NCBI GenBank assembly: GCA_029776225.1
Contig: JAKOTR010000011.1
Location: forward strand, 186,001-250,000
Origin: Acidobacteriota bacterium
Lineage (GTDB): Bacteria; Acidobacteriota; Terriglobia; Bryobacterales; Bryobacteraceae
Direction of reading: 5' to 3'
DNA length: 64,000 bases
Shown here: one piece after another, positions 2,990 through 9,553 of the stretch
Position numbering within the stretch: position 1 is the stretch's first letter
How the letters are laid out: each line of letters opens with the position of its first letter
The notes under the pieces: model-generated
The model's database searches: none
The model's input: the letters and a program-made list of their open reading frames with translations, nothing else
What the model was told of the DNA's origin: nothing
Translations under genes and position numbers: made by a program

Positions 2990-4105
2990 TTGAGATACCG
3001 GACCCTTTTCATTTTTGGGACGCGCCCGGAGGCCATCAAGCTGTGCCCCGTGATCAATCACCTGCGCTGCCGTGCGGAGTTCGAGGTGAGCGTCTGCGCC
3101 ACCGCCCAGCACCGGGAGCTGCTGGACCGGGTTCTGGCGGCTTTCCAGGTTGTGCCGGACTTCGATCTCGACGCGATGCTTCCGGGCCAAACGCTCACCC
3201 AGACGGCGGCGAGGATCCTGGCCGGATTGGAACCGATTATCCTGAAGGTGCGTCCAGATATTATACTGGTACAGGGAGATACAACCACCACACTCTGCGG
3301 AGCTTTGGCGGCCTTTTACCAGAAGATCCCGGTAGGCCACGTTGAAGCTGGATTACGCACCTGGGACAGCCTGCAGCCCTTCCCCGAAGAGATGAATCGA
3401 GTTCTTGCCACGCGCCTGGCGTCCCTCCACTTCGCGGCGACGGATTGGGCTGCGGCGAATCTGACACGTGAGGGTGTGGACCCGTCACGAGTGGTGGTTA
3501 CGGGAAATCCCGGCATTGACGCGGTGCTCTACGTGAAAGAGCAGCTCGAACTGGGAAAGCTAAAGGGAACGGAGTGGCAACCGGACCCCACGCGCAAGCT
3601 GATCGTAGTGACCGCGCACAGGCGGGAGAGCTTTGGCGAGGGGATTGAACGCATCTGCTCGGCGCTTCGGCGATTGGCGGAGCGGCCGGATGTTCAGATC
3701 GTTTACCCGGTCCATCCGAACCCGAACGTGCGGGAACCGGTGCGCCGGCATCTATCGGGGCTGCCGAATATCTGTCTGCTGGAACCGTTGGATTACGTAC
3801 CGTTTGTTGACCTGATGCGGCGCGCGTGGCTGCTGATCACCGATTCGGGCGGGATTCAAGAGGAAGGGCCGTCGCTCGGCAAACCGATTTTGGTCTTGCG
3901 TGAGAAGACGGAGCGGCCGGAAGCCGTCCGGGCCGGGACGGTGAGACTGGTGGGAACGGATGAGGAAAATCTCCTGCGGGAGGTGGAACGGCTGCTGGAT
4001 GACCCTCAGGAGTACGAGCGGATGGCGGTCATTCACAACCCATACGGAGACGGCCGCGCAAGTATTCGAATTGCGGACTCAATTGTCTCATTCTTAAAGA
4101 AATAA
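2990..4105 (+). CDS. wecB: UDP-N-acetylglucosamine 2-epimerase (non-hydrolysing)
   Basis: The 371-residue protein is a full-length GT-B-fold epimerase with the N-terminal FGTRPEAIK signature, HVEAGLRT at about residue 117, the VTAHRRESFG motif and the DSGGIQEE substrate loop. It interconverts UDP-GlcNAc and UDP-ManNAc for surface polysaccharide synthesis. Translation begins at a TTG (2990); no ATG fits the conserved N-terminus and only a weak AAAGG precedes it. No other polysaccharide genes are adjacent, so it is probably a housekeeping envelope gene placed alone. Confidence 0.94.
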   Translation: MRYRTLFIFGTRPEAIKLCPVINHLRCRAEFEVSVCATAQHRELLDRVLAAFQVVPDFDLDAMLPGQTLTQTAARILAGLEPIILKVRPDIILVQGDTTTTLCGALAAFYQKIPVGHVEAGLRTWDSLQPFPEEMNRVLATRLASLHFAATDWAAANLTREGVDPSRVVVTGNPGIDAVLYVKEQLELGKLKGTEWQPDPTRKLIVVTAHRRESFGEGIERICSALRRLAERPDVQIVYPVHPNPNVREPVRRHLSGLPNICLLEPLDYVPFVDLMRRAWLLITDSGGIQEEGPSLGKPILVLREKTERPEAVRAGTVRLVGTDEENLLREVERLLDDPQEYERMAVIHNPYGDGRASIRIADSIVSFLKK

Positions 4106-4206
4106 AGTTTGGAAATTTTGTCGTTAAAAAGCTTTGAAGACGCCCTCCGAGGGGTTAGGGTGAAATGGCAGCAGATATAATGGGGCCAGAAGGGGAAGCG
4201 GATCGC

Positions 4207-5640
4207 ATGAAGACCCCGGCCACGTCAGCAAAAAATAAGAAAGCGCCGGCGGAGAGCTCCAACGACCTGGTTGCGCTGCTTTCACAGAAAGTGATCGGCC
4301 AGCCGACGGCGATGAAATATATCGTTCCCTACATCGAAATGTTCCAGGCGGGGCTTGCGCCGGAGGGGCGGCCTGTTGGAGTGTTCCTCCTGCTGGGACC
4401 AACGGGTACGGGAAAAACCAAAACTGTGGAAGCTCTCGCGGAGGTCTTGCACGGGAGCGAGAAAAACGTCCTCAAGATCGACTGCGGCGAATACCAGATG
4501 GAGCACGAGGTCGCTAAGCTGATCGGCGCGCCACCGGGATATCTGGGGCACCGTGAGACGCAGCCCATGCTCAACCAGCAGAAGCTGAACGCGGTGACCA
4601 GCGAGAAGTGCAATCTCTCGATTGTTCTGTTCGACGAAATCGAAAAAGCTGCGCCGTCGTTGACCCGCCTGCTGCTGGGAATTCTGGACCGCGCTATTCT
4701 TCGCCTGGGCGATAATAGCGCCGTAAATTTCGAAAACAGCCTGATATTCCTGACCAGCAACCTGGGCGCCCGGGAGATGATGAGGGAGATTAATCCCGAG
4801 TTCGGTTTCCACGCGGGCGTGCAGACGGAGCGGGCCGAGCTTACCAGCAAATTGGAGAGCATCGCGCTTGGGTCGGTTCGGAAGCGGTTCTCGCCGGAGT
4901 TTGTCAACCGGATCGACGCCGTGATCACGTACCAGCCGCTCGATCACGAATCGCTGGCGATCATTCTGGACCAGCAGATTGCGGAGCTGCAGCGGCACGT
5001 CAATACACGGCTGGGGGACCGGTACTTCAACATCGAAGTGCCGTTCGAGAGCCGGCAGTTCCTGCTCCGGAAGGGAACCAGCCCGGAATACGGCGCGCGG
5101 GAGCTGAAGCGGACGATTCACCGCTACCTGACCCAGCCGCTGGCGACGCTGGTTGCCAGCGGGCGCATCGAGCCGGGCGCGCGCGTCCGGGTCGAGGTGT
5201 CCGAGGACAAGGAGAGCCTGACCATCCGCTCTCTGGATCACGGCGCTGTCCGTGCGCCTCAGCACCCGACGGTGCTTCTGGTAGACGACAACCGCGACCT
5301 GCTGCGCTTTCTGGAGCGGTTGATGGCGCAGGCCGGCTGGCGGCTGCTGACCGCCGAGTCGGCTCAGGAGGCCAAGGAGGTACTCGCCAACCAATTGCCA
5401 AACGCGGCGCTGCTCGATTTCCTGCTTCCCGACGGCAACGGCGTCGAGCTTGGAGTGATGCTCCAGCGGATGGCGCCGAAGGCGCAGGTCATTATCATGA
5501 CGGGCGCGCAGCTCTCGGCGGAGGAGGAGGCGATCTGCCAGGAGTACGATTTTCCGGTGCTGCGCAAGCCGTTCCTTGCGAACGACATTCTGAACTTGAT
5601 CCGCGCGCGGCTGTTCCGGTCAAGCGCGGCGACGGTTTAG
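4207..5640 (+). CDS. ClpB/ClpC D2-type AAA+ ATPase fused to a response-regulator receiver domain
   Basis: Numbered from ATG 4207 (477 residues). Walker A GPTGTGKT is at about 64-71, a GYLG pore loop at 111-114, Walker B LFDEIEKA at 141-148 and sensor 1 TSNLGA at 183-188. An arginine-finger region (SPEFVNRID) and a ClpB-like small domain with the sensor-2 GARELKR follow. This is a single Clp/Hsp100 D2 module; the N-domain and D1 are absent. From about residue 350 a CheY-like receiver follows, with acidic pocket VDDN, acceptor Asp in LLDFLLPDGNG and Lys in RKPF. A longer frame starts at ATG 4165, but a TATAAT at 4176-4181 sits inside it, so 4207 is preferred. It may be an unfoldase gated by phosphorylation. 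Confidence 0.85.
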   Translation: MKTPATSAKNKKAPAESSNDLVALLSQKVIGQPTAMKYIVPYIEMFQAGLAPEGRPVGVFLLLGPTGTGKTKTVEALAEVLHGSEKNVLKIDCGEYQMEHEVAKLIGAPPGYLGHRETQPMLNQQKLNAVTSEKCNLSIVLFDEIEKAAPSLTRLLLGILDRAILRLGDNSAVNFENSLIFLTSNLGAREMMREINPEFGFHAGVQTERAELTSKLESIALGSVRKRFSPEFVNRIDAVITYQPLDHESLAIILDQQIAELQRHVNTRLGDRYFNIEVPFESRQFLLRKGTSPEYGARELKRTIHRYLTQPLATLVASGRIEPGARVRVEVSEDKESLTIRSLDHGAVRAPQHPTVLLVDDNRDLLRFLERLMAQAGWRLLTAESAQEAKEVLANQLPNAALLDFLLPDGNGVELGVMLQRMAPKAQVIIMTGAQLSAEEEAICQEYDFPVLRKPFLANDILNLIRARLFRSSAATV

Positions 5641-5648
5641 CGGTGAGG

Positions 5649-6692
5649 TCAGGGCGCAGGTTCCAGACTCCAGGTCTCGCTGAGGCTGCGCCTGTTTTTC
5701 AAGAACACTTCAAGACGGAACGTGACGCTGCCCGAGTTGCGGCGGTAGGTGATGCTGCCCTCGCGCAGTTGCGCGAGGGGGACGTCGAGCGTCCGAGTCT
5801 CGCCGTCGTCGGTAATGGACAGCACGGCTCCCGAGGCTTGGGCCAGGGCGGGCGCGTCGCGGTCCCACATCAAATGAAGATTTTGATCCGACTCCACAAC
5901 CAGCAGTGACAGAGCGTACGGATCACGGGGCGGCGCGCGGCGCGCGGGCGGCGCTGGCAGTGGTCCGAACGCGGCAAGGAATCCCAAGAATCCATCCACA
6001 AGCAACAGGGCGGCGAGCAGAGGCCCCTGAATCCACCAGGAGGCCCAGACAGCGCTCCGCGGGCGGAAAGCCAGAACGGCGGACTCGGGTTCGCACGCGG
6101 GCGGCTCTGGTTCCGGCGCCGGCGCGGGCTCGCTTTTTTCGTGCCGGAGGGGGAGTTCCAGACAGCCCGGCACGGCCGTAACTTCACCGTTCTCCCGGTA
6201 AAACAGGCCGGCGAGAGCGGCCCGGCGCGGCTGCGGCCGGATCAACAGGGCCACGCAATACGGTTCGGGGAAAAATTCGGAAAACAGCTCGAGGTCCGAA
6301 GGCGCGAGTGACAATCCGGCCCGCGCCTGCGTCCGGTAGAAGCCGACGGCATAGATGGACCGGCCGGGAGACCGCTCCCAGAGGCGCAGCGTTATCCGCA
6401 GGTTTTCCTTGTCCCTCTCCGAGAGGCGGTAAATGGGGCCGGAGGCGTACTCGATGGGGACTTCCAGGACATTTTCGACCGTGACTGCGACGCCTGGACC
6501 TGCCCCGGCGCAGCCCAGAAGCAATCCGCCGGTTTCAAGCCGGGCGCCCAGCCCGCGTCCGGCGCCTGCCAAAACGCGGCTCGCCGCGCGCACGGAGAAA
6601 TGAACGCTTACCGGCTTGCCCGGCACCTGCCAGTAGTAAATATTCCGCGGTCTTCTCGACAGCGTCTGAGAACCTGCCCATCGTTGGCGCAA
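5649..6692 (-). CDS. JAB/MPN-like domain membrane-anchored protein of unknown function
   Basis: Up to 347 residues. The N-terminal half resembles a JAB/MPN isopeptidase fold: an ETGGLLLG segment matches the family's E-x-GG-x-L-x-G strand, and a GFYRTQ...LSLAPSDLELF segment sits where the active enzymes have H-x-H...S-x-x-D. The metal-binding histidines are missing, so it is probably catalytically dead. A Pro/Glu-rich linker, a transmembrane segment (about residues 225-245) and a beta-rich C-terminal domain follow. The longest frame starts at TTG 6692; a GTG at about 6626 fits the domain start better. The function is unknown. Confidence 0.65.
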   Translation of the reverse strand: MRQRWAGSQTLSRRPRNIYYWQVPGKPVSVHFSVRAASRVLAGAGRGLGARLETGGLLLGCAGAGPGVAVTVENVLEVPIEYASGPIYRLSERDKENLRITLRLWERSPGRSIYAVGFYRTQARAGLSLAPSDLELFSEFFPEPYCVALLIRPQPRRAALAGLFYRENGEVTAVPGCLELPLRHEKSEPAPAPEPEPPACEPESAVLAFRPRSAVWASWWIQGPLLAALLLVDGFLGFLAAFGPLPAPPARRAPPRDPYALSLLVVESDQNLHLMWDRDAPALAQASGAVLSITDDGETRTLDVPLAQLREGSITYRRNSGSVTFRLEVFLKNRRSLSETWSLEPAP

Positions 6693-6761: not shown

Positions 6762-7583
6762 ATGCCCGGTACGCTCTATCTCATCGCCACACCCATCGGA
6801 AACCTGGAAGACATCACCCTGCGGGCTTTGCGCATCCTCAGAGAGGTGGACGTGATTGCCTGCGAGGACACCCGGCAGACACAGAAGCTGCTGCACCACT
6901 ACGGGCTGGACAAGCGGACCATAAGTTACCACGAACACAACGAAGCGCTGCGGGCGCCTGAGTTGGTCGCGCAGCTTGAAAGCGGCGCGAACGTCGCCCT
7001 GGTGTCGGATGCGGGCACGCCGCTGGTCTCGGACCCGGGGTACCGGCTGGTGGTGAAGGCGATTGAGCGCGGGGTACAGGTGGTGCCTATCCCGGGGGCG
7101 TCGGCTGTGATGGCGGCCCTGGCCGCGTCCGGGCTGCCCACGGACACTTTCCAGTTCTTCGGCTTTCTTCCGGCGCGCTCCTCGCAGCGGCGGAAGTTCC
7201 TTGCAGGGCTCAAGGAGGCGTCCGCGACGCTGATCTTCTTTGAAGCGCCGCACCGCATTCGCGAGACGCTGGCCGACATCGCCGAAGTGCTCGGCCCGCG
7301 TCCCGTTGTGCTGGCGCGCGAGCTGACCAAGATCCACGAGCAATTTCTGCGCGGAACGGCCGAGGAGCTGCTACGCTCGCCGCTCCCGCAGAAAGGGGAG
7401 TTCACGGTGCTGATCGGGAAGGCGTCTTCCGGTTCTCGTGAAGAAGAGATGCCGGCGGCCGAGGCGGTTGAGGAGAGGGTGCGGGCGGGAATGGACCGCA
7501 TGGACGCGATCAAGGCCGTGGCAAAGGAACGCGGCCTGTCGAAGCGCGAAGTGTATCGCCTGACGCTCGAAAAGGAGCGCTAA
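6762..7583 (+). CDS. rsmI: 16S rRNA (cytidine-1402-2'-O)-methyltransferase
   Basis: A tetrapyrrole-methylase-fold SAM enzyme of 273 residues. It carries the family motifs [18 protein letters not shown] at the N-terminus, [23 protein letters not shown], and the PGASAV strand. RsmI 2'-O-methylates C1402 in the ribosomal decoding centre, together with RsmH elsewhere. The C-terminal [10 protein letters not shown] helix is typical. ATG 6762 is preferred over a TTG six bases upstream. Its TAA stop overlaps the TAG stop of the convergent histidine kinase gene within a CTAA tetranucleotide. Confidence 0.95.
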
Positions 7584-9553
7584 TCGGCGGCCTGACGCCG
7601 GGCCCTTGCCGGCGCCGTCACTTCCTCGATGGCTTTGGCCAGTTCGAGCGGCCGGACCGGCTTGGGAACGTAGCCGTCCATCCCGGCGGCGAGGCAGCGT
7701 TCCCGGTCTCCTTTCATGGCGTGCGCGGTCATGGCGAGGATGGGCACGTGCCGGCCGGTGGTTTTCTCGCGCGCGCGGATGGCGGCGGTGGCAGCCAGGC
7801 CGTCCATGTCGGGCATCTGGACGTCCATGAGGATCAGATCAAAATTTTGCTCGGCGGACTTTTGGACCGCCTCACGGCCGGTTGTTGCCAGCACCACGCG
7901 GTGGCCCTGTCTCTGAAGAATACGGAGGGCGACCTTCTGGTTCAGAACGTTATCCTCCGCCATCAGGATGAAGAGGGGCTGCGCTGCCGTGATGGGCTGC
8001 GGGATGCGGTTTGGAGGCGGTTCGGTGGCCGCCGCGGCATCCGTCCGGACGACCGGCATCGGCACGGTGAAATGAAAAGTGCTGCCGACGCCGAGCTCGC
8101 TTTCGACCTCCAGGCGTCCTCCCATGAGTTCCACCAGCCGGGCTGAAATCGCGAGCCCGAGCCCCGTGCCTCCGTACTTCCTCGTCGTCGATCCGTCGGC
8201 CTGCCGGAAGGCGTCGAAAATCGTAGGGAGCTGTTCAGGCGCGATGCCGATTCCCGTGTCGGTAACGGAGAAGCGCAACGCAACCTCGCTTTCGGTGCGA
8301 GATGCCACCTGGACGCGCACGTCGATGCGGCCCGAGTTGGTGAACTTGACGGCGTTGCCCAGCAGGTTCAGCAGAACCTGCCGGAGGCGCAGCGGATCAC
8401 CGAGCAGCCTGTCGGGGATGCCGTCTTCCGCCTCGAAGTTGAGGGCCAGTCCTTTCTGGCGTGCGGAGATCGACAGCGTGCGGACGGCTGCGCTCACGAC
8501 TTCAACCGGGCACAAGGGCACCGGTTCGAGATCGAGCCGCCCGGCCTCGATTTTCGAGAAGTCCAGGATGTCGTTCAGCAGCATCATGAGCGATTCCGCT
8601 GAACTTTGAGCTGTTTCGAGGTACTCGCGCTGTTCCGGAGTGAGTTCGGTCGCCAGCACGAGTCCCTGCATCCCGATGATGCCGTTCATGGGGGTGCGAA
8701 TTTCGTGACTCATGTTGGCGAGGAACTCGGACTTTAGCCGGGACGCTTCCTGGGCGCGGGCGAGCAGTTCCTGGGTTTCGGCGGTCTTCCGGCGTATGGA
8801 CAGTTTCAGCGTCACGATCCAGATCACCGCGACCAGTGCGAGACCGCCGACTATGGAGGCGGTGACGATGACCTGGGTGGTGGAGAACACTGGGGGGCGG
8901 CGGATCGTGACCAGATCGGCGCTGGTTCGGAGGCGGATCTGGTGTTCGTCCTCCGAAAGAGGGATAGAAATGCCGGTGACCTGCACCTCGGCGCCGGGCG
9001 GAGCGACCTGCGCCAGAACCGACGGGCTGCCGTCCGGCCGCCGGAGGTATACCCGAAGCATTTTCTTGCCGGCTTCCAGCAAGAGAAAATCCCTGTGCTC
9101 GCCGGCGCTGATCCTCGCTACCTTGCCGGTGAGACGGACCAGGCGGCCCGAGTACTTCGCCGTGCGCGCCTCCTTGGGAGTCGTGACCTGCGGGGTGACG
9201 CGGGGCCCTCTGCCGAGCCGGATGACCTGGTCGGCGACCAGCTCAGGCTCAATGTCCCGAAGCCACCGCGGCCGGCCGCGAACTTCCACGCGATCGCCCA
9301 GAGAGAGCTGCAGGGGCTGTGTTCCCGTGACCGCGATGCCGCCGCCCTCGTCCTCGAAATAGAAGACTCCCGGAGAATAGGTCATCATGCCGGGCGGAAA
9401 TGTGACGACGCCTCGCACCGCCACCCGAGGCTGCGCGTCGGGATGCTCGACAAGCCGGCGTTTCAGCTCCGTAATGGAGACGGTTTCGATGCCGGCGGCC
9501 AGTGCCGTCGATTGCATCGCGAAGCAGAGCGCCAATGGGATTGCGGAAACCAC
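7580..9553 (-). CDS. Hybrid sensor histidine kinase with periplasmic domain and receiver
   Basis: 657 residues. A short signal peptide (1-20) is followed by a periplasmic region (about 25-215) with two OB-like beta segments. A transmembrane helix lies at about 227-251, then a coiled linker. The HisKA domain has its phospho-acceptor in [11 protein letters not shown] (about residue 282). The HATPase domain shows the DTGIGI and GGTGLGL motifs. A C-terminal receiver has its acceptor Asp in [13 protein letters not shown] (about 579). It probably senses a periplasmic ligand and relays phosphate through its own receiver. No HPt or output regulator is adjacent. The start is GTG 9553. Confidence 0.92.

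Follow-up and report, generated by a model that had tools for sequence, protein, structure and literature searches.

The window analysed here, a stretch of DNA of 64,000 nucleotides, contains at positions 4207-5640 of the forward strand an open frame (coding part 4207-5637) for a single uninterrupted protein of 477 residues, in which a Clp D2-type AAA+ ATPase is followed by a C-terminal receiver domain. The longest open reading frame is 14 codons longer at the 5' end, with an alternative ATG at 4165, but 4207 is the likelier start since its ATG coincides exactly with the first start codon in each of the two closest relatives (L009 and L010). According to Pfam, the large and small domains of the AAA+ D2 module occupy positions 4369-5193 of the + strand (AAA_2, residues 55-238, and ClpB_D2-small, residues 245-329) and the receiver positions 5272-5601 of the same strand (Response_reg, residues 356-465), with the acidic pair D360/D361, the acceptor D404, T432 and K454. 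All three matches exceed the curated Pfam cut-offs. N-terminal of the receiver part, Pfam detects nothing but the AAA+ module, the N-domain, D1 and the M-domain being absent. The module starts at about residue 20, and the N-terminal substrate- or adaptor-binding domain of ClpP partners is thus missing. With one module in 477 residues, the protein also departs from the layout of ClpB and Hsp104, which comprises two AAA+ modules and an M-domain. The predicted model of the single chain (36 sequences, mean pLDDT 83.6, pTM 0.64) consists of the D2 module, a poorly ordered linker (residues 345-351) and a complete receiver made of five strands and five helices. The preliminary description of this locus had proposed a single D2 module with the motifs GPTGTGKT, GYLG and GARELKR, devoid of N-domain and D1 and ending in a full receiver with acidic pocket, acceptor Asp and Lys, and this layout is borne out in all its parts.

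Directly upstream of the fusion lies a wecB-like gene for a UDP-N-acetylglucosamine 2-epimerase (2990-4105, + strand; Pfam PF02350), and a Ku-family gene occurs at positions 759-1610 (Pfam PF02735). Convergent to the fusion, positions 5649-6692 of the - strand encode a protein of 347 residues which has no Pfam match at an E-value of 1e-4 and displays an ETGGLLLG motif that we take to resemble JAB/MPN proteins. The nearest histidine kinase, a hybrid HisKA-HATPase-receiver protein identified by Pfam, is encoded at positions 7580-9553 of the - strand, 1,940 bp downstream of the fusion.

The same architecture recurs widely. A scan of named genome records, made on one genome per species with six short peptide patterns taken from the window protein, yielded 56 related loci, whose record titles all refer to Acidobacteriota or to groups within this phylum. 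Among them, 34 are fused (including L031, the receiver of which is cut by a contig end), 20 stop after the D2 module, and two, L063 and L064, are incomplete. Within the window's family the fusion occurs in at least 42 of 101 genomes, as judged by matches reaching query residue 466 or beyond, and one further case (G016) has its gene split across two contigs; the 101 family genomes and the 56 named loci overlap and are not independent of each other. The full fusion also occurs in 14 genomes from eight other families of the phylum. It is rare outside the window's family, with 3/119, 1/15 and 2/11 genomes in three families, and in one class 8 of 193 genomes match, one of the eight (G723) without a receiver match. 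The relative from the latter genome (L098, G723:C292) lies within a frame of 960 residues. The genome searches covered the phylum Acidobacteriota together with a plasmid collection, in which none of the 2,123 matching records covered 80% of the query in one place and no fusion was seen.

Both halves of the protein are under purifying selection. Among the three closest sequences, dN/dS amounts to about 0.05-0.06 for D2 and 0.07-0.09 for the receiver, with synonymous sites near saturation, and to 0.18-0.20 for the linker where computable. Together with the recurrent domain order, this selection therefore places the architecture beyond chance. The possibility that two genes were joined through a frameshift or an assembly error, envisaged at the outset as a potential refutation, was rejected and its probability is negligible: the fusion is found in 34 of the 56 named loci as well as in the genomes of the window's and other families, and the full-length places listed show no internal stops. 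The architecture is real and conserved.

Residue conservation was assessed on 88 aligned proteins, corresponding to 61 distinct fused and 27 unfused proteins (25 orthologues and two paralogues). Eight of 96 rows had been left out before counting, four of them truncated or odd (L031, L063, L064 and L098) and four identical duplicates (L076, L077, L080 and L081). In the AAA+ module, the Walker A residues G64, P65, G67, G69, K70 and T71, the Walker B pair D143/E144, Y112 and G114 of the pore loop, and N185, R235 and R298, presumably sensor 1, the Arg finger and sensor 2, respectively, are each present in 88/88 proteins. The sequence features of Clp/Hsp100 proteins, namely Walker A and B, an aromatic pore loop, the sensors, the Arg finger and a D2 small domain, are all found. 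Since the catalytic residues are invariant, the D2 module is very probably an active ATPase. Among solved folds, ClpC1 in the ClpC1P1P2 complex ranks first (8ycx_A; Z 31.7, rmsd 3.1 over 316 residues), and a ClpB structure less than 1 Z unit below (6oax_E; Z 30.8) is tied with it; the best structural matches cover residues 10-345 alone and barely test the receiver. Among NCBIfam models, ClpB (226 bits) and then ClpA (204 bits) score best, both far under their full-length cut-offs. With respect to ClpC and ClpA, the alignment reveals a family-specific insertion before Walker B, and a tree of the D2 module places the family on a long branch among outgroups which it does not resolve. The AAA+ core gives a weak match to the Pfam sigma-54 model (29.6 bits, versus 126.1 bits for AAA_2). 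A sigma-54 activator of the NtrC type was considered and rejected, AAA_2 and D2-small being dominant and no DNA-binding domain occurring among the Pfam hits. A role in anti-phage defence was likewise considered; the four PADLOC matches, all inside the AAA+ module, are weak (76.6 bits at best).

In the segment separating sensor 1 from the Arg finger, the module contains an insertion which ClpB is without, harbouring the tripeptide F199-G200-F201 (positions 4801-4809, + strand, identified by alignment) as a candidate ClpP-docking loop. Glycine at position 200, Phe or Leu at 201 and a hydrophobic residue at 199 are each found in 88/88 proteins, i.e., a D2 loop of the IGF/IGL type (hydrophobic-G-[FL]), and the adjacent positions 196, 198, 202 and 203 are variable. 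The loop aligns with GIGF in E. coli ClpX, with SIGL in E. coli ClpA, with GMGF in a ClpC-like protein of the same genome, and also with VGF in a ClpC from the structure bank, presumably of the B. subtilis type. The motif is missing at the aligned place in both proteins of the ClpB type that were compared, one being E. coli ClpB and the other a ClpB-like protein of the window's genome, named from its alignment with the former. In published reports, a conserved IGL/F motif is described as used by ClpA for ClpP and lacking in ClpB and Hsp104 (PMC5540906), and IGF loops are described as docking into hydrophobic sites of ClpP (PMC9035409). Compared with the IGL/F motif of PMC5540906, the Phe that occupies the first loop position in 47 of the 61 fused proteins is unusual, and the loop stretch of the predicted model displays a lower confidence, with block means of 74 and 60. 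A ClpP gene is present in the window's genome (G000:C81:226194-226736). Because of the conserved loop, its absence from the ClpB types and this ClpP gene, a putative ClpP partner is favoured over a disaggregase. The conserved ClpP-type loop represents the strongest point added to the preliminary description, the suggestion of disaggregation made there being at odds with a protein that lacks the ClpB N-domain, D1 and M-domain and invariably possesses a loop of ClpP-partner ATPases, which ClpB/Hsp104 disaggregases do not have.

In the receiver of the 61 fused proteins, D404 and K454 are present in 61/61 and belong to the six receiver positions without any variation, followed by D360 (57/61), T or S at position 432 (56/61) and D361 (54/61). 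The window protein has all the residues of a response regulator, i.e., acidic pair, acceptor Asp, Thr or Ser, and Lys, and the pocket is complete in 52/61 proteins when D or E and T or S are allowed. A pocket non-functional across orthologues, the other refutation initially considered, fails in view of these counts. The pocket is altered in the nine remaining proteins, six of which (L035, L036, L038, L039, L078 and L103) have a broken acidic pair and a receiver still in frame. Four of these, L035, L036, L038 and L039, form one subclade in which the acidic pair is lost and the acceptor Asp and Lys are kept, and where the switch may have been lost or altered. The residue located three positions before the Lys is aromatic in CheY. 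In 56 of the 61 fused proteins this position is occupied by V, L or I, and a classical aromatic (Thr-Tyr) switch is therefore doubtful here. Of the 88 proteins, 27 (25 orthologues and two paralogues) are without the receiver, which indicates that the motor can be kept without it.

In the tree, built from the D2 columns of the 88 proteins and four outgroup D2 modules, all 61 fused proteins fall in one cluster, inside which the unfused L086 and L089 also branch, their nested position being unevenly supported. This topology is most simply read as a single fusion event followed by one or two losses. The copies from other families sit inside the fused cluster and are rare, which suggests a horizontal spread to these families, several of the nodes involved being weakly supported. 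A wecB-like gene occurs at most 150 bp upstream, on the same strand, in 21/27 unfused and 6/61 fused loci (the window and five others). It can be regarded as a conserved neighbour, which is not proof of a joint action with the ATPase. Since this gene lies upstream of most unfused relatives and of the window's fusion as well, the window's copy seems to occupy the ancestral position, and we infer that the fusion probably formed at such a wecB-linked place. Two more single-D2 proteins are encoded in the same genome (L082, G000:C14:165059-165991, and L083, G000:C73:112967-113947). They are about 45% identical, are devoid of a receiver and possess the Gly-Phe loop. Relatives at a similar level of identity also occur outside the window's family, and a receiver gene and a kinase are located near L082.

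The absence of an adjacent kinase, stated in the preliminary description, holds for the immediate neighbours but not for the wider surroundings, given the hybrid kinase located downstream and the adjoining kinases of some families. The kinase at 7580-9553 is without a tblastn match in the loci of L009 and L010 and was discarded on this account as a conserved partner; as a partner of the window's fusion it is possible but unsupported. As to the proposed search for co-occurring kinases, the loci flanked by 1 kb or more of sequence on each side have one at a distance of 1 kb or less in 2/40 cases for fusions of the window's family, in 4/13 for fusions of other families and in 0/24 for unfused relatives. 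These counts rely on a home-made kinase profile which may miss some kinases, and on a family split of our own in which named records without a family label were counted with the window's family. The expectation derived from HisKA counts is about 0.6 of the 13 loci, so that four or more would occur with P 0.002, a value that assumes a random and independent placement with 2 kb per kinase, three of the four loci coming from one family. Cruder backgrounds, taken from the flanks of the loci themselves (9% for the window's family, 25% for the other families and 14% for unfused loci), reveal no kinase excess.

Pfam HisKA and HATPase_c domains were confirmed in neighbours of L071, L079, L090, L091, L093 and L104. 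Upstream of the L075 fusion lie a sigma-54 regulator at 23 bp and a kinase at 1.8 kb. Two loci from two genomes of one genus, L071 and L091, share the order LuxR-type regulator, fusion and PAS kinase, with identities of 61% for the kinase (519 aligned residues) and 64% for the regulator (232 aligned residues). This common order is suggestive of a phosphorelay link, without amounting to proof. A search of the window's genome with the L071 kinase gave 57 matches, the best with 41% identity over the catalytic part, and no stand-out orthologue. Other receiver genes flank the fusion in L071, L074, L075, L091 and L099.

The explanation that best accommodates these observations, to be held tentatively as its probability falls just short of even, is a single-ring Clp unfoldase acting as a partner of ClpP and equipped with its own two-component switch, which would be regulated by phosphorylation in cis. 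The phosphorylation-controlled unfolding initially put forward appears as a sensible reading, since the D2 motor and the intact pocket are conserved in orthologues. Skd3, a single D2 ring able to disaggregate, provides a precedent for a different reading, according to which the fusion would be a ClpP-independent unfoldase or disaggregase similar to the single-ring human Skd3/CLPB, set by its receiver and using the loop otherwise. The Skd3 structures retrieved in the fold search (Z 27.0 and 26.7), the ClpB structures matching about as well as ClpC, and the first rank of ClpB in NCBIfam all point in this direction; however, the missing M-domain, N-domain and D1 of ClpB, and a loop present in 88/88 proteins and absent from both ClpB-type proteins compared, render it unlikely.

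The receiver could also serve mainly as a docking platform for substrates or adaptors, with a minor or absent role of phosphorylation. This would account for the nine altered pockets, including the six with a broken acidic pair in receivers still in frame, for the aromatic switch residue missing in most proteins and for the kinases not being enriched nearby in the window's family (2/40), but it fits poorly with the invariance of D404 and K454 and with the 52 complete pockets, and it is judged improbable to the same degree as the Skd3-like reading. A receiver functioning as a phosphate sink, or as a pairing partner for that of some separate response regulator, on a motor reduced to a scaffold, would agree with the receiver genes that flank the fusion in five loci. 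It is very improbable in view of the catalytic residues kept in 88/88 motors, which a mere scaffold would not need.

For the preferred ClpP-partner reading, six copies would assemble into a ClpX-like ring, their hydrophobic-Gly-Phe loops would plug into the genome's ClpP, and the pore-loop tyrosines (Y112) would pull substrates through. Phosphorylation of D404 would be ensured by a histidine kinase or by a small phosphodonor. Attached through the short variable linker to the D2 small domain at its C-terminal end, the receivers would lie close to the side where related ATPases dock ClpP. Because of this attachment, phosphorylation would most likely alter ClpP docking or ring assembly, or open a docking site for a substrate or adaptor, turning the activity either on or off. 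One polypeptide would thus do what RssB does as a separate ClpXP adaptor. In PMC7226468, phosphorylation of the RssB receiver at Asp58 is reported to strengthen sigma-S binding and turnover by ClpXP, the physiological role of this phosphorylation being called controversial there. A more ambitious version would be a one-protein two-component protease regulator, in which a histidine kinase phosphorylates the Clp ring and the signal gates ClpP docking and destruction without any adaptor, and which arose once in a wecB-linked D2 protein of one acidobacterial family and then spread, in some families with or next to its own kinase. Taken as a whole, it is rather unlikely.

Compared with the known systems, the fusion adds a variant to the Clp unfoldases rather than a machine of a new kind. 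Like ClpX, it would form a single AAA+ ring, is devoid of D1 and has a loop of the IGF type at the aligned place, but its sequence is of the ClpB/ClpC D2 type, without the zinc-binding N-domain and with a C-terminal receiver. The D2 modules of ClpC and ClpA resemble it in sequence, fold (Z up to 31.7 to ClpC1) and hydrophobic-Gly-Phe/Leu loop, whereas the fusion has no N-domain, D1 or M-domain, possesses its own insertion before Walker B and has gained a receiver. The likeness to ClpB, Hsp104 and Skd3 lies in the best NCBIfam score (ClpB) and in the D2 fold, and the difference in a loop that ClpB lacks and in the missing ClpB M-domain, N-domain and D1. In RssB and CpdR, the latter a response regulator acting as a ClpXP adaptor, a receiver is likewise tied to a Clp ATPase, but these are separate adaptors whereas the receiver of the fusion is part of the ATPase chain. 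The sigma-54 activators of the NtrC type also combine a receiver and an AAA+ module in one protein; their receiver is N-terminal, a DNA-binding domain is present and the AAA+ module is not a Clp D2, in contrast to the Clp D2 with C-terminal receiver of the fusion. As far as searched, the architecture is unreported: the accessible parts of the open-access literature, subscription papers being mostly outside this scope, contain no recognisable report of a Clp ATPase-receiver fusion.

Bacteria are known to steer their Clp proteases via separate adaptors, among which response regulators are represented by at least RssB. Should the ClpP-partner reading be true, a sensor kinase could directly raise or lower protein destruction, signalling acting on the protease ring itself, and the fusion would offer a simple system for studying how phosphorylation gates an AAA+ ring or ClpP docking, and possibly a kinase-controlled degradation tool. 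A further neighbour, a relative of a Cas6-family gene, lies upstream on the opposite strand in 16/61 fused loci (e.g., L018:6166-7146, - strand) and in 0/27 unfused loci. The receiver-less orthologues (25 of the 88 proteins) represent a natural control for assessing the contribution of the receiver.
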